Shown here piece after piece: positions 2,916 through 21,193 of a stretch of DNA of 23,533 nt (the first letter of the stretch is position 1; every line of letters starts with the position of its first letter). Below the pieces are notes generated by a model. That model ran no database searches. It saw only the letters and a list, made by a program, of their open reading frames with translations, and was not told the DNA's origin. The stretch lies in IMG/VR virus record IMGVR_UViG_3300030419_006188, positions 1 to 23,533 of that record; one strand, given 5' to 3'. Position numbers and translations under genes: made by a program. The DNA comes from a virus.

Positions 2916-3050
2916 TTACCCCATCATCCATAAAAAATCTAGATAAGACTCTGTTTCGGTATAAACACCTTTAGTAGTGTCATTTGATAAAGGAGCACCT
3001 GGACCATGAGCTTCTGGAGGATTTTTAGATTTTTCTTTCTTTTCTGCCAT
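2916..3050 (-). CDS. Small hypothetical protein, 44 residues
   Basis: A 44-codon frame from the ATG at 3050 to a TAA at 2916. The protein begins MAEKKEKSKNPPEAHGPGAP and ends with LDFLWMMG: a basic start, a Pro/Gly-rich middle and a short hydrophobic end. No family is recognised. Support comes from its fit in the same-strand gap between two other small genes, its tight 11-base spacing to the next gene, and a composition unlike a random frame. Against it, no clear Shine-Dalgarno sequence precedes the ATG, and it starts just downstream of a terminator, so it needs readthrough or its own promoter. Role unknown. Confidence 0.55.
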   Translation of the reverse strand: MAEKKEKSKNPPEAHGPGAPLSNDTTKGVYTETESYLDFLWMMG

Positions 3051-3068
3051 TTTAAAAAGTAATAGAGT

Positions 3069-3097
3069 AAAAAAATTTGGGAGATTATTTTTCCCCC
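3069..3097 (-). terminator. Rho-independent terminator after the 74-residue gene
   Basis: On the minus strand GGGGGA (3097-3092) can pair with TCTCCC (3084-3079; one G-U pair) across a 7-base A/T loop. This is followed by AAA and seven T. The hairpin's left arm is part of the 34-base repeat shared with the gp32 3' end. It should end transcription of the 74-residue gene. Confidence 0.7.
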
Positions 3098-3126
3098 GAT
3101 TCTGTAACTAAAAGTTGAATTTCCCT
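3093..3126 (-). repeat. 34-base dispersed repeat, copy A (3' end of 74-residue gene)
   Basis: The sequence matches 20237-20270 at 31 of 34 positions; the last 17 bases on the plus strand are identical. In both copies the repeat begins at the stop codon of a minus-strand gene and leads into a C5/G5 run and then a T7 tract. See the matching copy and the finding. Confidence 0.85.
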
Positions 3127-3349
3127 ACAGAGGATTTACATAAACTAATACCTCATCAGGTACAACCGCCCTTACTAACTCAAGTATATTCATAAACTCT
3201 TCTAAGTTTTCACAATCCACCTCCTTTTCATCTCCATGACTGGATAGAAGACGCACATTTCTCTTCATAGGATCGACAATACACCTGGTAACGTATTCAT
3301 CCTCCTCATTCTCCGTCACATAATCCTCAAAATTGTACTTAGGTTCCAT
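3125..3349 (-). CDS. Small acidic hypothetical protein with its own promoter and terminator
   Basis: Unknown function. The 74-residue protein starts MEPKYNFEDYVTENEEDEYV and is strongly acidic, with many Glu/Asp residues. A central segment (about residues 24-36) looks like a short beta hairpin, and the C-terminal half (about 47-72) looks helical, ending VLVYVNPL. It has two cysteines (C23 and C46) but no recognisable zinc motif. The gene appears to be a separate transcription unit: an extended -10 host-type promoter lies 22 bases before the ATG, and a terminator with the gp32-like 3' element follows the stop. GGAGGGG lies about 13 bases upstream of the ATG as a ribosome site. The acidic character and likely early expression fit a small host-takeover or DNA-mimic protein, but this is speculation. 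Confidence 0.75.
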   Translation of the reverse strand: MEPKYNFEDYVTENEEDEYVTRCIVDPMKRNVRLLSSHGDEKEVDCENLEEFMNILELVRAVVPDEVLVYVNPL

Positions 3350-11351: not shown

Positions 11352-13462
11352 TATCCTACTTGATAGAGTTCACCTAAGAATTTTTGTTTATGATAACTAT
11401 TTACGCTAGTTCCTGAATCCAAACTAGGAGCTCCTTGTCCCGAACCACCAGATGACATGGAAGAAGATTGATCTCCTTGTCCACCTCCAGAAGTCATAAT
11501 TATATTTGGAGCAGGTTCCTGAGTGGGATCATCCTTAGATACAGTATCTGCTTTCTGTGAAGGTGTAGATGAACTAGCAAAATTAGCCGGCGCACCCCCT
11601 TCCTCTTTCTTATCACCAGGAGGGAAGAAAGACTTACCCAAAAGAGGAATAGTCTTCTTAAGATTAAGAAGAGCAAACCAATTAGTAATTCCCAACCTAT
11701 TAGTATTTTCTTCTTTAAACGATTCTATAAATCTACCAAATCCACCAGAAATCCAATCCATAATCTTCTTACCACCCGATATCAAATCATCCCATTTCTG
11801 CTTCAGTAACTTTTTAGCACCCTCTATTCCTTCCCCCCTAAACACTTCATAAAGAAGTTCACCAGCAAATTCACCCACCATTTCACCCAATATCATTGTA
11901 AAGGGATTAGCTAATGCCGCTCCAAGTGCGCCACCAATTCCTGCTCCAGCCACCAGGAACAGGGTTTTATCCATAGGGTCGTTGTTTAACATGGAGGAAA
12001 CAGCCACCATGATAGGACCCAGAATAGGTATCTTTATACCTTTAGATGCTTTAGCCATCCCCTTGGTTAAGGTAGGAGCACCTGCCAATTCCTTTGCTAC
12101 TTTACCACCAAAGAGTTTCCGAACAAAATTAGATACTTTTCCTCCTACCTTCTTAACCTTATCAACCTTTGAACTTACCTTTCCAGCAATATCCTTTGCT
12201 TTGGTAGTTACTTTTGTAGCGACATCCTTTCCTTTGGTGACTATATTAGACTTAGCTACTTTACTAACAATGTCCTTTCCTTTAGTAGTTACTTTTGTAG
12301 CAATATCCTTTCCTTTGGTAGCTATATTACTTGCTACTTTTCTACCACTCTCAACAATTTCCTTTCCTTTAGTAATAGCAGCTGTTGTAGTTCTAGTAAC
12401 TGCCTTCGTAGTCGCTTGAACTGCTGTTTTTGCACCTTGAAAAGTTTTTTGTAAGGTCTTAGCTCCAGGAAGATTACCTATAAATTTTCTTGCAGCATTA
12501 ATTCCTTTACCTGCTAAATTAAAAGCTCCTTTAGCAAAATTTATTGCTATATCTTTAGCTTTAGATATTATTCCACCAACATACTTAACTATCTTAGTTT
12601 TTAAAAATAAAAATCCCGACTTTATAGCATTACCAACCTTACTAAATCCTTTAAAGGCTGTATCTAATCCAAGCTTGAGTAATCCTCCAAGGAATTTACG
12701 AGCTGATCCAAGTAACTCCGGCAAAGATCCCAGAAGTCCTCTAAGACCCCAGAACAGCATCTCCATTTCTGCTGTTCCTCTTTTAAATATCTTAGTAACA
12801 GTTGGAAGAAGCTTCAACAAGCCTATCACTACAGTTCCTAAAAGAATATTCTTCAAGAAATCCCATATCATCCCCAAGAGACCTTTCTTCTCCTTCCCTG
12901 ATGATTTTTCCTCTTTCTTACCTATATCAGCTTTAGGTTTAGATTCTAATGCTGCCTCTCTATTAGCCTTTCTATCCTTCTCATCCTGTTTACGAAGAGC
13001 TTTTTGATTCTTTAATTTTATTATATTAGTATCTTCAAAAGCCTTTTTCAATCCTCCCGTAATACCTGCAATCTCATTAATACTTTTTAAAACAGCTTCA
13101 AAGCTAGCTTTTCCTTGTTGGGGAGAAACATCAGCTTTACTCACATCCATTTGAACCTTAGAGGGAACTAAAGATGCCGTAGGTCTAGAAGATGGAACTA
13201 AAGCACCTCCCTTTGAAGGTACTATCTGGCCTCCTTTATCACCTACTCTCGCAAGAGGTCCTCCTTTGCTTCTTCTTCCTTTACGTCTACCCCTTACAGC
13301 ATCAATGGCTTTATCCTTAGCCATTCCCTTAGCAGCACCAATTGCTTTCTGTTTTAATCCAGTAGCGGCAACCTTCTTAGCACCAACAGCTAGAGCTTTA
13401 CTAGCCGCAGCTTTCCCAAAAGCAGCTTTTGCGGTGCCTAATAATGCTAATGGAGCTGCCAT
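11351..13462 (-). CDS. Tape-measure-like structural protein B (TKGKD repeats)
   Basis: A 703-residue basic, Ala/Lys-rich, largely helical protein. Order of parts: an Ala-rich helix (1-55), a cluster RGRRKGRRSKGG (58-69), a linker, a block ending LESKPKADIGKK (about 172-183), a hydrophobic segment MIWDFLKNILLGTVVIGLLKLL (about 198-219), long helices, a repeat zone (about 357-450) with TKGKDIATKVT-type units, a second hydrophobic region (about 473-540), and a Gly/Ser-rich end. The block at 168-220 closely matches residues 193-246 of the next gene upstream, so the two are paralogues. Long helical proteins with internal hydrophobic segments next to hub genes are typical of tail tape measures, which set tail length and enter the host membrane. 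A hub-associated accessory protein is the alternative. Confidence 0.6.
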   Translation of the reverse strand: MAAPLALLGTAKAAFGKAAASKALAVGAKKVAATGLKQKAIGAAKGMAKDKAIDAVRGRRKGRRSKGGPLARVGDKGGQIVPSKGGALVPSSRPTASLVPSKVQMDVSKADVSPQQGKASFEAVLKSINEIAGITGGLKKAFEDTNIIKLKNQKALRKQDEKDRKANREAALESKPKADIGKKEEKSSGKEKKGLLGMIWDFLKNILLGTVVIGLLKLLPTVTKIFKRGTAEMEMLFWGLRGLLGSLPELLGSARKFLGGLLKLGLDTAFKGFSKVGNAIKSGFLFLKTKIVKYVGGIISKAKDIAINFAKGAFNLAGKGINAARKFIGNLPGAKTLQKTFQGAKTAVQATTKAVTRTTTAAITKGKEIVESGRKVASNIATKGKDIATKVTTKGKDIVSKVAKSNIVTKGKDVATKVTTKAKDIAGKVSSKVDKVKKVGGKVSNFVRKLFGGKVAKELAGAPTLTKGMAKASKGIKIPILGPIMVAVSSMLNNDPMDKTLFLVAGAGIGGALGAALANPFTMILGEMVGEFAGELLYEVFRGEGIEGAKKLLKQKWDDLISGGKKIMDWISGGFGRFIESFKEENTNRLGITNWFALLNLKKTIPLLGKSFFPPGDKKEEGGAPANFASSSTPSQKADTVSKDDPTQEPAPNIIMTSGGGQGDQSSSMSSGGSGQGAPSLDSGTSVNSYHKQKFLGELYQVG

Positions 13463-15486
13463 TACTGCTCACCCACTAAATTATACATGGCTTTTACCAC
13501 AGTAGTCATGGAATTATTAACATCAGAAGCTGAAAAAACCGGAACAACTTTTTGATTAGCTGAAGCAGGTCCACCACCTCCAGCTGGTGGAGGTGTACTT
13601 CCACCACCTCCAGCCATTATAATATTTCCACCAGAAGGTCTAGGACCTGGTAGGAATCGTTCAGCAACAGGTGATATCCCTACTCCTCCACCTCCTTGCA
13701 TTGCCATAATGGTCTGAGTAACAGTACCACCACCCTCTGCCTTCTGAATACTTCCAGAATTTATAAATCTAGGCTTATTATCCCCACCACCTTCTTTATT
13801 CATAGCCAATAATTTGCCAGCCCCAATCTTATCAACTGCCTTCTTACTCATCACTATTTCACCTGGCTGAGCAGCAACCAACTGTGTATCTTTACCTGCA
13901 CCTTTAACCTTTACCCCACTCCCTGAAGTAATCTTTCCACCCTTCTTCACAGACATTTTCTGAGCAGGAACTTCACCACCACCTTTCATCTTAGCAGCAG
14001 CGCCTATCTCATCCCCCAAATCACCATAAACTTGTGCCTGTGAACCTGGAACCAACCTATTAATCGTATTTTGTATGGCCTCAGGTTGACCATGAGGATT
14101 AGCAATCAAATTATCCAGTTGAGCAACCATTTCTTTTGATCCCCCTTCAACCGCATCTTCCCTCATCATCTGAAGAGTTGTAGTAACTTTATCTGCAGTC
14201 ATTTTACCCACATCGGGAACTACTCTTCCATCCTCTAACTCCATAGATGGAAGTCCATGTTTTGCAAACCTCTGATGTGCTTCTTCTGGAGTTACTTGTC
14301 TTATGGAATGGGTTCCTAGTTGGTCGGCAGCAGTTGCACCCTCACCGGATTTAAAACTCGATTCACGAAGAAGCATATCCATCTTTGGACCAGGTTCACC
14401 CTGTGGACCAGGTTCACCCTGTGGACCAGGTTCACCTTGGGCACCAACTACCCCACCCTCTGCTGACGTTTGAATGTTATCATCAGCATATTTAAGTTTA
14501 GGTATATCTGGAATGTCAGGAATATTAGGAATCTTAAAAACAGGAATAGTATCTTCTCCCACTCCTGGTATTATTGAAATTGCTTTATTGATCCCACCTA
14601 TTAACCCCTCAATACCCCAATTAATACCATCAATTATAGCATTAAAAGGTCTTATCAACTGATTACCCAACCCAACCAGAGCAAAATTAAGAACATCTAT
14701 TATACCATTAATAATCAACTTAAGAGGATCCAATATCCTCCAAGGATTCTCAAGAAGCTTGAGCAGCCCTATGACCGCAGTACCCAACATAATATTCTTA
14801 ACAAAATTCCATATCATTTCAAAGATACCCTTAGCTGGGGCAGCAACCTTATCTAAAATCTTTTTACCTATATTAGCTTGAGGTTTAGACTCCAACTTAG
14901 ATTCTCTATCAGCCTTGGTTGCTTTCTGTGCTGCTACTCTATCTTTTGAGATAGCATCCTTTTCTATCTTATTCCCTTTCTCAATAGCAACTAATATTCC
15001 TTTAAGATTATCTTCTACCTTAACCAAACCACTACTCAAAGCAGATACATTATCTGCCTTCGCATCAGTATCACTACCTACAGCAGGAGTCTGTGGAATA
15101 GATTGAGCCTCTTGTGATTCTTCCTTTGGAGGAGGTAAAAGCTTCTGAGGGTCTATCTTGGTTCCACGTGGAGCTTTAACTGAATCCTTTCCAATCTTAC
15201 TTCCAGACGGAGTCTTAGTAGATGGAACCTTAGGAGTCTGTGGAATAGCTTGAGTTTGTTGTGGTTCTTCCTTTATAGACTTAACTCTTTTCCATTCATC
15301 AGTAAGAGCTTCCGTATCTCCACTAGACAATCCGCTGTCCGTCATCCGACCAGCCACCATCTTCTCTTTTAAGAGAGTCTTATATGTACCTAAATCAATA
15401 TCTTTATTATCTGTAATTCCAAGCAGGCCAAAAATCTTAGGATTAACTCCCTCTAAAAAACCACTTGTTTCTTTTTTAACTGGCAT
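13462..15486 (-). CDS. Tape-measure-like structural protein A (collagen-like repeat)
   Basis: A 674-residue protein. The N-terminal 190 residues are helical and Pro/Lys-rich, and include a duplicated segment (EEPQQTQAIPQTPKV at 73 and EESQEAQSIPQTPAV at 122). Residues about 193-246 include LESKPQANIGKK and the hydrophobic FEMIWNFVKNIMLGTAVIGL, closely matching the downstream gene. Two more hydrophobic helices follow (about 255-310). Residues about 347-368 are a collagen-like run of Gly-X-Y triplets (GEPGPQ repeated). The C-terminal part has KDTQLVAAQPGEIVMSKKAV, a phrase that recalls the QPGE-V-SK-AV motif of some phage tape-measure and structural proteins, and ends Gly-rich. The start overlaps the preceding small gene by 11 bases; the stop overlaps the next start (TAATG). 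A tape measure or hub accessory is the likely role. Confidence 0.6.
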   Translation of the reverse strand: MPVKKETSGFLEGVNPKIFGLLGITDNKDIDLGTYKTLLKEKMVAGRMTDSGLSSGDTEALTDEWKRVKSIKEEPQQTQAIPQTPKVPSTKTPSGSKIGKDSVKAPRGTKIDPQKLLPPPKEESQEAQSIPQTPAVGSDTDAKADNVSALSSGLVKVEDNLKGILVAIEKGNKIEKDAISKDRVAAQKATKADRESKLESKPQANIGKKILDKVAAPAKGIFEMIWNFVKNIMLGTAVIGLLKLLENPWRILDPLKLIINGIIDVLNFALVGLGNQLIRPFNAIIDGINWGIEGLIGGINKAISIIPGVGEDTIPVFKIPNIPDIPDIPKLKYADDNIQTSAEGGVVGAQGEPGPQGEPGPQGEPGPKMDMLLRESSFKSGEGATAADQLGTHSIRQVTPEEAHQRFAKHGLPSMELEDGRVVPDVGKMTADKVTTTLQMMREDAVEGGSKEMVAQLDNLIANPHGQPEAIQNTINRLVPGSQAQVYGDLGDEIGAAAKMKGGGEVPAQKMSVKKGGKITSGSGVKVKGAGKDTQLVAAQPGEIVMSKKAVDKIGAGKLLAMNKEGGGDNKPRFINSGSIQKAEGGGTVTQTIMAMQGGGGVGISPVAERFLPGPRPSGGNIIMAGGGGSTPPPAGGGGPASANQKVVPVFSASDVNNSMTTVVKAMYNLVGEQ
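14388..14450 (-). repeat. Tandem 18-base repeat encoding collagen-like Gly-X-Y triplets
   Basis: The plus strand carries three near-identical 18-base units (GGACCAGGTTCACCCTGT type). On the minus strand these code for GEPGPQ repeats inside the tape-measure-like gene. Tandem repeats of this kind can gain or lose units. Confidence 0.85.
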
Positions 15487-18107: not shown

Positions 18108-19526
18108 ATGGCAATAGAAAATAGAACAAGAATATGGAATGGTCTGCGCGTCTATGAGTCTATCGATACGACAACTGGACAAATACAATTATATGGATCA
18201 ACTGCCGACAGAACTGCAGGTACAGGAGTTTTAGCAACATCTCCACCCAATGCCCAAGTAGGTACTCCAGATCAGGGAAGGAATTGGGAAATAACTGATG
18301 CTACCACCTTTACACGTCTATACAATAATAGAAGAGGAGCAGGTAGAGGACAACAATTATCTACAAGTGCATTTACAAATCAATTCTTTAATAACGGAAG
18401 AAACTTATTTAATACTGATAGAGCCACTGTATTAAATGATCAATCAGCAGATTTAAGAACCTATTTTTCCAACACACTAGGAATACCAGGAGTTATACAC
18501 CCAACCTCACGTAATATCGTCAATGCATCTGGGAGTTCTTCTTCTAATCCAATTTTTGGATCCACTCAATCAACTTTAACCGATGGATCAACCCCAATAG
18601 CTACCAATATAAATGCTGCTCCTACTGCGGGAAGGCTAGCCAATTATACAGGTATTAGAAGGTATCCAGAACAAAATCTATCGGATTATGGATATGATTA
18701 TATCCAATTGCAAGCTTATGAATATGTTGGATCCTTACAGGGAGCAGGAGGATCAGGATCAACTAACAGATTTCAAGGTCAACCAAAGACCACCATCCAA
18801 CTTCCAATGCAACCCAATTTGTCAGAAACAAACGCTACTGGATGGAATGAAGACACAGCCAATCTTATTCAATTAGCAGCTGGTGCTGCAGCTCAAAAAA
18901 CTATGGGTGACCTGGCCACCGCAGAAGGAGCTGTGGCTGGTGGAGCAGCTGCTCTAGCGGGTGGTGGGGGAGCAGTTATGGCAGGAGTTGCAGGTAAAGC
19001 AATCTTTGAAACTACAAAAAATCTATCTGGAGTTGTATCAGATCCAGCAACCATACCAGGAGTAGCTGGTTATTTTGCGGGACAAGCTGTAGGAGCTAAT
19101 ATATTAGGGAGAAGTACAGGACAAGTAATTAATCCCAATCTTGAATTACTTTTTAATGGTCCTAAATTAAGAACATTTTCTTTCAATTTTCCCCTGACAC
19201 CCAGAACTGATAATGAAGCAGAAACAATCCGAAGAATGATTAAAGACTTCAAACAATACATGGCTCCCAAACAAACCACAGGAAATCTATTTTTAGATCC
19301 CCCATGTCTTTGGAAACTGGAGTATATTTACAATGGAGGAAGCGCCCATCCCTGGATGAATAAATTTAAACCATGTGCCTTAACAAGCTTTGGAGTAGAC
19401 TATACACCTGATGGTTCTTACATGACTTATGATGATGGTTCTATGACTGCTTATAGAATAGCTTTAGCATTCAGTGAAATTGAACCTATATATTCTAACG
19501 AATACCAAAATAACACCTTCCAGTAA
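18108..19526 (+). CDS. 48: gp48 baseplate tail tube cap
   Basis: A 472-residue protein. The C-terminal region (about 345-470) matches T4 gp48, the cap that joins baseplate to tail tube: LELLFNGPKLRTFSFNFPLT, then DNEAETIRRMIKDFKQYMAP, HPWMNKFKPCALTSFGVDYT and PDGSYMTYDDGSMTAYRIAL. The first 230 residues are a less conserved, Thr/Asn/Gln-rich region with NNRRGAGRGQQ; about 250-330 is Ala/Gly-rich and hydrophobic (VAGGAAALAGGGGAVMAGVA), which may be a helix packed inside the assembly or could touch a membrane. It is longer than T4 gp48. A late promoter lies 26 bases upstream; no strong Shine-Dalgarno. The stop shares a base with the gp53 start (TAATG), linking production of cap and wedge. Confidence 0.92.
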   Translation: MAIENRTRIWNGLRVYESIDTTTGQIQLYGSTADRTAGTGVLATSPPNAQVGTPDQGRNWEITDATTFTRLYNNRRGAGRGQQLSTSAFTNQFFNNGRNLFNTDRATVLNDQSADLRTYFSNTLGIPGVIHPTSRNIVNASGSSSSNPIFGSTQSTLTDGSTPIATNINAAPTAGRLANYTGIRRYPEQNLSDYGYDYIQLQAYEYVGSLQGAGGSGSTNRFQGQPKTTIQLPMQPNLSETNATGWNEDTANLIQLAAGAAAQKTMGDLATAEGAVAGGAAALAGGGGAVMAGVAGKAIFETTKNLSGVVSDPATIPGVAGYFAGQAVGANILGRSTGQVINPNLELLFNGPKLRTFSFNFPLTPRTDNEAETIRRMIKDFKQYMAPKQTTGNLFLDPPCLWKLEYIYNGGSAHPWMNKFKPCALTSFGVDYTPDGSYMTYDDGSMTAYRIALAFSEIEPIYSNEYQNNTFQ

Positions 19527-20197
19527 TGGCAAAGCCCTACTTCAGATACGTACCAGACTTTGATTACGTCAGTAGGCTTACTGATGCTAAGAGTATATCG
19601 GACTATGTACGTACTAAAAATCTTTTTAAAAGAGCCAAACTAAGACCAGATATCTTTGAAAATCTCAATCACTTTACAAAATACAAAATTATTGGAGATG
19701 ATAGACCAGACAATGTAGCTTATGAAGTATATGGAGATCAAAATTTAGATTGGTTAATAATGTTATCTAATAATATTATTAATCTAGAGAATGAATGGCC
19801 AATGGAACAAACAGCTTTCCATAATTATCTACTTAAAAAATATAGAACAAACGCCAAAATATATTCAGTCCGTCATTATGAAACAGCAGAATTAAAAGAT
19901 AGTACAGGAAAAATTGTAGTTCCCAAAGGACTAGAAGTTCCTTCAGATTTTTCTATTACCTACTATGATTCTGGAAGAGGAGTAGAAGATGAAGTAGTAA
20001 ACAGTGCTGTAGCTGTTACTAACTACACCTACGAAGATAGAATACAAGAAAATAAAAGAAACATCTTCCTTCTTAAGGATAGATATGTTGGTCTTGTTAT
20101 AGAAGATCTTAAAGAAATCATGCCATATAAAAAGGGCTCTACTCAATTTGTGAGTAAAACCCTGGCTAGAGGAGAAAATATTAGATTATATAATTAA
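19526..20197 (+). CDS. 53: gp53 baseplate wedge subunit
   Basis: A 223-residue protein matching the gp53 wedge family. In T4, gp53 joins the six wedges around the hub. The start (AKPYFRYVPDFDYVSRLTDA) and the segment AYEVYGDQNLDWLIMLSNNI (residues about 68-87), with INLENEWPM after it, match the T4 pattern of a gene product with an AIYGNPQLYWVLL-type segment. The C-terminal part (about 175-215) is a helix with ENKRNIFLLKDRYVGLVIED and LKEIMPYKKG. Length is slightly above T4 gp53. It shares the TAATG overlap with gp48. The stop is 72 bases from the convergent gp32 gene. Confidence 0.88.
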   Translation: MAKPYFRYVPDFDYVSRLTDAKSISDYVRTKNLFKRAKLRPDIFENLNHFTKYKIIGDDRPDNVAYEVYGDQNLDWLIMLSNNIINLENEWPMEQTAFHNYLLKKYRTNAKIYSVRHYETAELKDSTGKIVVPKGLEVPSDFSITYYDSGRGVEDEVVNSAVAVTNYTYEDRIQENKRNIFLLKDRYVGLVIEDLKEIMPYKKGSTQFVSKTLARGENIRLYN

Positions 20198-20225
20198 AAA
20201 AACTAATAGGGTCAAAAAAATACCC
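20196..20225 (-). terminator. Possible terminator in the convergent gp53/gp32 gap
   Basis: The gap is 72 bases between two converging genes. A GGGT/ACCC stem with a 9-base A-rich loop lies at 20209-20225, followed on the minus strand by TATTAG and seven T. The stem is short. On the plus strand an ATTTT follows less convincingly. It probably ends the gp32 transcript and perhaps also that of gp53. Confidence 0.4.
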
Positions 20226-20236
20226 AGGATAATTTT

Positions 20237-20270
20237 CCCCCGATTTTGGAATTAAAAGTTGAATTTCCCT
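20237..20270 (-). repeat. 34-base dispersed repeat, copy B (3' end of gp32)
   Basis: This matches 3093-3126 at 31 of 34 bases, with the stop-codon-proximal 17 bases identical. The copy begins at the TGA of gp32 and includes GGGAAATTCAACTTTTA followed by CGGGGG. Downstream of both copies is a GGGGGAAAA stretch and a T7 tract. No hairpin is conserved between the two copies. Confidence 0.85.
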
Positions 20271-21193
20271 CAGGACTCAGCAAGTTTAGCAAAGTAACTC
20301 ATTGGATCTTCTTCCTCTGAATCATCTTCTACTTTCTTACTGTCCTTATAACTCTGTTCGAGTTTCTGAAGTACTTCCTCTTCTGATACTCTCTTCTGTT
20401 CTTGCTGAACAGTAGTATCATAATCCAACTCCTCTGTGGTTACCCTTTGAGGAGCTTTACGACCTAACACATAATCCAAACGCTTCTTCAGATCATCGTA
20501 GGACTTAAATTGATCAGCAGCTACAAAAGCTTGAAGAGAATGCTCCTTCTTCCAGATTGATTCTAGAGCGTCATCATCATCCAACAAAGGACCTGGAGTA
20601 TCAAACTCAGACTTATCATAATTCCAGAAACCATCCTTCTTCTGGAGCTTTAACTTAAAGTTAGCACCTGCCCAGAAGTCAAAGGGATTGATTGGAGTTT
20701 CATCCTCAAACTCTGGTTGCATTGCACCCATAATCTTGTCAAAGATCTTCTTACCAAACTTGTAAAGAAAAACATTCCCCTCGTTCTGAGGGTTAGCTGG
20801 ATCTTTTACAACATAGATGTTTGCATAGAAGGATAACTTACGCTTTTGCTTTCGTACAGTATCTTTATCTTTATCATTCCCACTGTTCCACAACTCACGA
20901 TTCAATTCTCCAAGAGGATCTTTTTGGTTAATGGTAGTGAGAGAGTTCTCAATATACCATCCACCAGGTCCTTGGAATGCGTGTGAAAACAGCTTAACCC
21001 ATGGCAAATCTTCTCCGTCAGGAGCAGGGAGGAATCGGATAACGGCATAACCATTACCACTCTTATCCATTTCTGGTTTCCAGAGCCTATCATCAGCCCC
21101 TCCACCAGTGTTATTCATCTTCTCGACTTCCTTGACTAGTTTGCTAGTTAAAGAGCCCAAAGAGCTTTGCTTTTTAAGGTCGGAAAAACCCAT
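20270..21193 (-). CDS. 32: gp32 single-stranded DNA-binding protein
   Basis: A 307-residue protein. N-terminal KKQSS (7-11) fits the Lys/Arg3-Ser/Thr2 type LAST motif needed for cooperative binding in T4 gp32. The core (about residues 35-225) shows GYAVIRFLPAPDGEDLPWVK, RKLSFYANIYVVKDPANPQN, EGNVFLYKFGKKIFDKIMGA and WAGANFKLKLQKKDGFWNYD, all typical of the family. The C-terminal tail is acidic (VEDDSEEEDPMSYFAKLAES), as needed for contacts with other replication proteins. No cysteine is present, so the T4 zinc site is absent. It lies downstream of DUF1825 and gp59, with GAGG 8 bases before the start. The TGA overlaps a 34-base repeat shared with the 74-residue gene. Confidence 0.95.
   Translation of the reverse strand: MGFSDLKKQSSLGSLTSKLVKEVEKMNNTGGGADDRLWKPEMDKSGNGYAVIRFLPAPDGEDLPWVKLFSHAFQGPGGWYIENSLTTINQKDPLGELNRELWNSGNDKDKDTVRKQKRKLSFYANIYVVKDPANPQNEGNVFLYKFGKKIFDKIMGAMQPEFEDETPINPFDFWAGANFKLKLQKKDGFWNYDKSEFDTPGPLLDDDDALESIWKKEHSLQAFVAADQFKSYDDLKKRLDYVLGRKAPQRVTTEELDYDTTVQQEQKRVSEEEVLQKLEQSYKDSKKVEDDSEEEDPMSYFAKLAES

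Follow-up and report, generated by a model that had tools for sequence, protein, structure and literature searches.

An ~80-nt element at gene ends of T4-like cyanophages, probably a transcription-terminator or mRNA 3′-end cassette

The window, i.e. the whole stretch of 23,533 bases that was analysed, is a complete IMG/VR virus record and probably represents a genome fragment. It carries T4-like cyanophage genes, among them those of gp32, gp33, gp53, gp48 and the tail tube. Two minus-strand genes are considered here: an ORF of 74 aa at 3125..3349, which matches PHROG 662 and Pfam DUF7294 and has no assigned function, and the gene of the ssDNA-binding protein gp32 (307 aa, 20270..21193; PHROG 224, Pfam gp32). 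The gp32 gene is convergent with the gene of the baseplate wedge protein gp53 (19526..20197, plus strand; PHROG 232), and the DUF7294 gene is followed on the same strand by a 44-aa ORF without a PHROG match (MAEKKEKSKNPPEAHGPG..., 2916..3050). At 2691-2705, between the minus-strand ORFs 2713-2904 and 3-2642, there is also a compact hairpin (CCCCC-N5-GGGGG) flanked by T-rich tails on each of the two strands; it is likely a bidirectional terminator, unrelated to the ~80-nt element described below. A collagen-like GEPGPQ repeat is found at 14383-14446, in the 674-aa protein of ORF 13462-15486 (minus strand).

A repeated sequence lies at the end of each of the two minus-strand genes. Direct reading confirmed the preliminary description in that 31 of 34 bases are identical between 3093-3126 (copy A) and 20237-20270 (copy B), and that both copies lead into CGGGGGAAAA and then a T7 tract. 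Both also start at stop codons, copy A within the TAG of the 74-aa ORF (3127-3125) and copy B at the TGA of gp32 (20272-20270), and the two upstream genes, PHROG 662/DUF7294 and PHROG 224/gp32, are unrelated as had been stated. The repeat exceeds the 34 bases noted earlier and covers 78 nt with 79% identity (3049-3126 and 20193-20270). No other dispersed non-coding repeat in the window is as strong (blastn E=1.5e-13); in a 23.5-kb sequence of the same composition, about 1e-6 chance pairs with at least 31/34 matches are expected. No third copy was found in the window, including a scan with model R2, a broader model built from 85 diverse copies of the element.

Copy A (3050..3126, minus strand; R2 53.6 bits, E=3.7e-16) fills the gap between the DUF7294 stop codon and the ATG of the 44-aa ORF. 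In the sense of the upstream gene it comprises block 1 (AAATTCAACTTTTAGTTAC, 3104..3122), a hairpin (GGGGGAAAAATAATCTCCC, 3079..3097), a first T-run (T7, 3069..3075) and block 3 (CTCTATTAC) with a second T-run (T5; together 3054..3067). Copy B (20192..20273, minus strand; R2 67.8 bits, E=1.4e-20) lies between gp32 and the convergent gp53 and has the same order: block 1 (AAATTCAACTTTTAATTCC, 20248..20266), a weak hairpin (20224..20243), a first T-run (T7, 20214..20220) and block 3 (CCCTATTAG) with a second T-run (T7; together 20196..20211), which overlaps the gp53 stop codon on the opposite strand. The hairpins were placed by a terminator scan and by folding, block 1 and the first T-runs by their sequence, and block 3 with the second T-runs by sequence and alignment. 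Folding gave about -8.4 kcal/mol for copy A and about -5.5 kcal/mol for copy B, in agreement with the earlier statement that a hairpin forms in copy A and is weak in copy B; when shorter stretches were folded, the values were -4.5 and -3.0 kcal/mol, respectively. Despite the weak hairpin of copy B, the terminator scan flagged both copies alike as terminator-like.

Blastn searches of related cyanophage genomes revealed that the element is kept far beyond the window genome. At the gp32 locus, hits followed either gp32 itself or the gene that closes its operon, and faced the convergent gp53 (P-TIM68, P-TIM40, P-SSM7, Syn33, S-CAM8, ACG-2014a/b/g and S-MbCM6). The element was also found behind talC in S-T4 and Sf-CH5 and behind a 2OG-Fe(II) oxygenase gene in P-SSM2, and further blastn searches placed it behind gp33 in Bellamy, S-SM2, SynMITS9220M01 and S-SCSM1 and behind the DUF7294 gene in S-SM2 and Bellamy. 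A sequence-only model (R1) matched in 19/19 records searched. It added copies that follow psbA in P-RSM6 and the gene next after psbA in P-SSM7, and others located within psbD operons. Strong matches of model R2 numbered one or two per complete phage genome, and S-PM2 showed weak matches only. By their sequence, copies A and B belong to a family of ~80-nt elements, not listed before, that occurs in T4-like cyanophages (Kyanoviridae). A scan with Rfam of the window and 10 loci gave no match at the gathering score over the element, and only sub-threshold matches at copy A.

Block 1 predicts the remainder of the element in viral loci: among the matches listed for block 1 alone, 76/80 IMG/VR loci reached at least 30 bits over the whole element. 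Of the bacterial and archaeal matches listed for this 19-mer, 1/80 reached that score, on a phage-like contig. This full element lies at 2584-2661 of DKPS01000241.1 (L203), a contig binned as Saprospiraceae; it is probably a phage contig inside that bin, since the neighbouring ORFs resemble cyanophage genes. Only one of 201 Cyanobiaceae genomes had a match at E<=1e-5, and this match was partial; a host origin of the element was rejected, as no full match occurred in these 201 genomes. Given this rarity in the bacterial and archaeal 19-mer loci and in Cyanobiaceae, the element is phage-specific as far as tested.

The preliminary description had also considered a recent copy event. The identity of 79% between two copies in one genome is what a recent local duplication without function would leave; the same gp32 and DUF7294 positions, however, carry the element in many other phages across genera, so that copies A and B sit at old, shared positions. 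A recent duplication is thus extremely improbable.

An alignment of 85 diverse copies was nearly gap-free. The 5′ part consists of block 1 (AAAWTYRACTTTTRATTCC) at the stop codon, followed by AAAA; in the middle lies a short hairpin whose loop consists of 4-8 A, and block 3 occurs as GCTCTGTAGGG, GGTCTCTAGGG or GCCCTATTAC/G. The first T-run (at least 5 T) was present in 54/85 copies and the second, 3′ of block 3, in 68/85; both were found in 37/85, the second only in 31/85 and the first only in 17/85. A strong hairpin (<= -7 kcal/mol) occurred in 38/85 copies, 27 of which (27/85) also had the first T-run. Portions of both blocks as well as an A-run and a T-run had been prescribed by the search patterns and filters; the conservation of these bases is therefore partly built in, and some counts of T-runs and A-loops carry a bias. 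This does not apply to the hits that blastn and the models gave in complete genomes.

Pairing within the element was investigated by exchanging hairpin arms between copies. Arms folded better with their own than with swapped partners (-6.85 vs -5.00 kcal/mol, z=-7.7), also in a thinned set of 31 copies (p=0.00025), and pairing was stronger in the sense than in the antisense strand (-6.85 vs -5.75 kcal/mol). The short hairpin was the sole pairing supported by the swap test. Three long-range stems, some of them attractive in single folds, were rejected because pairing with the own partner had no advantage over pairing with a swapped one: the stop-codon flank with block 3, CGACUUU of block 1 with AGGGUC, and the A-loop plus G's with the U-tract plus block 3. 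For the last of these the test is hardly informative, since its A and T runs are almost invariant. An analysis of column-wise covariation with a tree-based null gave nothing significant, perhaps because the hairpin register shifts between copies, and RNAalifold returned no consensus pairs from a 30-sequence alignment. The earlier view that sequence rather than stem is conserved holds in the main, but the matched arms indicate that the hairpin is not dispensable across the family.

The element is closely tied to gene ends. A same-strand upstream ORF stopped at block 1 in 78/85 diverse copies, with the stop codon within 16 nt on either side of the block 1 start in 77 of these 78 and 38 nt before it in the remaining one. 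The stop was at -4 to -2 relative to block 1 in 38 copies, and 13 copies used a TAA inside block 1. The upstream genes belong to 21 PHROG families, some of them overlapping and at least 10 unrelated; DUF7294 (21 copies), gp33 (15) and gp32 (13) were joined by genes of oxygenases, talC, the tail tube, a cAMP phosphodiesterase, psbA and others. The element had the sense of the upstream gene. Downstream, a convergent gene was found in 33/85 copies, and an ATG-ORF of at least 40 codons started within 25 nt of the second T-run in 33/80 copies, compared with 13% at random positions. The element thus often occupies precisely the space between a stop codon and the next start codon. A DNA binding site or replication element that came to lie at gene ends by chance would agree with a conservation that is greater in sequence than in structure; the constant orientation relative to at least 10 unrelated upstream families and the matched hairpin arms make this reading very unlikely.

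Taken together, the coupling to stop codons, the unrelated upstream families, the matched arms and the stronger pairing in the sense strand argue for an RNA function, and copies A and B probably belong to a conserved cyanophage transcription-terminator or mRNA 3′-end cassette. Judging from its anatomy, the element probably ends or trims the RNA of the upstream gene. The transcribed hairpin and T-run would stop RNA polymerase, completely at copies with strong hairpins and partially at those with weak ones. This stop would close the transcription unit of gp32, DUF7294, gp33, talC or psbA, may insulate convergent late genes such as gp53, and could produce a step-down of expression where the next ATG follows directly. 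A close downstream ATG leaves no room for a promoter, which speaks against complete termination at such copies; partial termination or RNA processing would be more likely there and at weak hairpins. A plain terminator does not account for all observations, as only 38/85 copies have strong hairpins and the first T-run, which would adjoin the hairpin, is missing from 31/85, while blocks 1 and 3 are conserved on both sides of the hairpin, which is more than a plain terminator needs. Through its conserved 5′ block, the element probably gains a further, sequence-specific step, which might be processing, end protection or factor binding.

The element might instead act between cistrons, mainly as a signal for RNA processing or stability. 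A nuclease would then cut the AU-rich block or the hairpin edge, the hairpin and U-tract would protect the upstream mRNA, and the downstream gene would retain a short leader. The AU-rich block 1 conserved outside the hairpin, the many weak hairpins, the ATG directly behind the second T-run in 33/80 copies and the coupling to the stop codon are all compatible with such a signal. The 33/85 copies at convergent gene ends, however, have no downstream message needing processing, and the T-runs are kept; we consider a mainly processing role unlikely. It is more doubtful still that block 1 is the site of a phage factor, or of a phage-modified host factor, which defines the 3′ ends of selected mRNAs (gp32, gp33, psbA and talC). 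Such a factor could set the 3′ end also at copies whose hairpin would not suffice for termination, and the A-rich loop could hold and protect the U-rich 3′ tail.

Gene gain and loss was observed at the edges of the element. In P-SSM2, a 591-nt oxygenase gene fills exactly the interval that separates the upstream gene from the element, whereas in L345, which has no oxygenase gene, the element follows directly behind the upstream gene. The same pattern of clean indels was found in the pairs L013/L130, L309/L354 and L316/L353. In 152 locus pairs, element and downstream flank were common and the upstream gene differed, although oxygenase inserts of one locus type supplied most of this signal. L087 had, relative to L414, an extra stretch with a second block 3. 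Copies within a genome were somewhat more alike than copies between genomes (0.63 vs 0.55), a modest excess (permutation p=0.003, n=10 genomes).

These observations would be expected if the element were maintained as a recombination joint, with homologous recombination between copies adding or removing adjacent genes, a function that is compatible with the terminator reading. A recombination hotspot at the element is not claimed, however, since the 945 raw clean indels in the bin before the element shrank on clustering to 8 distinct insertions at the 5′ edge. This is a modest enrichment, as 100-bp bins averaged 3.5 and those at other gene junctions reached 14. Strong copies number just one or two per genome, and the coupling to strand and stop codon favours an RNA role. 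Maintenance as a recombination joint is possible, but less likely than not. Of the earlier suggestion of a recombination seed between gene cassettes, the clean insertions exactly at the edges stand, but the comparable turnover at other junctions means that the element is not claimed as the cause of recombination.

The nearest known kind is the intrinsic (Rho-independent) terminator. Part of the copies resemble it in carrying, past a stop codon, a short G+C hairpin and then a T-run, and the terminator scan was positive for copies A and B. The cyanophage element differs in having about 40 conserved bases outside the hairpin at nearly fixed spacing, often a second T-run, and many copies with weak hairpins. 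With respect to evolution, the nearest kind is the PeSLs (promoter-early stem-loops) of T4-type phages (Arbiol et al. 2010; Comeau et al. 2014; both as cited in PMC4503421). So far as they are described there, PeSLs are likewise sequence-conserved stem-loop terminators between genes, with gene insertion and loss at the element; this cyanophage paper gives few PeSLs in S-PM2. Compared with that description, most cyanophage copies have no promoter part (33/85 abut a convergent gene and 33/80 an immediate ATG), the one or two strong copies per complete genome do not form a dense set in hyperplastic regions, and the element also occurs at core-gene ends (gp32, gp33). As the promoter half and the high density are missing, the element was not filed as a PeSL despite the shared gene swapping. 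The L17 downstream element and other bacterial 3′-UTR RNA motifs (Weinberg et al. 2010, PMC2864571) are also conserved non-coding 3′-UTR elements of protein genes; the cyanophage element, in contrast, is phage-specific, follows many unrelated upstream families and has no conserved complex fold. A miniature mobile element was rejected, as the window repeat search found no inverted repeat at the element ends and the position is tied to stop codons.

We found little description of transcript ends in T4-like cyanophages in the literature. The element offers a signature by which the 3′ ends of genes for replication, late regulation and auxiliary metabolism (gp32, gp33, psbA and talC) can be searched, a 3′ module common to core and metabolic genes, and its edges mark precise joints at which metabolic genes enter and leave cyanophage genomes.

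In P-SSM2-type copies, a promoter-like stretch does follow the element. Such a stretch was observed behind oxygenase-linked copies (L010, 1347-1398, minus strand; P-SSM2), with similar downstream sequence in L013, L015, L016, L018, L026 and L035, and in several loci it contained an NtcA-like pattern (GTA-N8-TAC). The oxygenase-linked copy of P-SSM2 is also followed by a glutamine riboswitch (RF01739), which together with the NtcA-like pattern might form a nitrogen-responsive unit. Several of these loci, including L034 and L035, showed a 192-nt insertion downstream of the element region, at +136 to +330 relative to block 1, which is possibly a second copy of the riboswitch.
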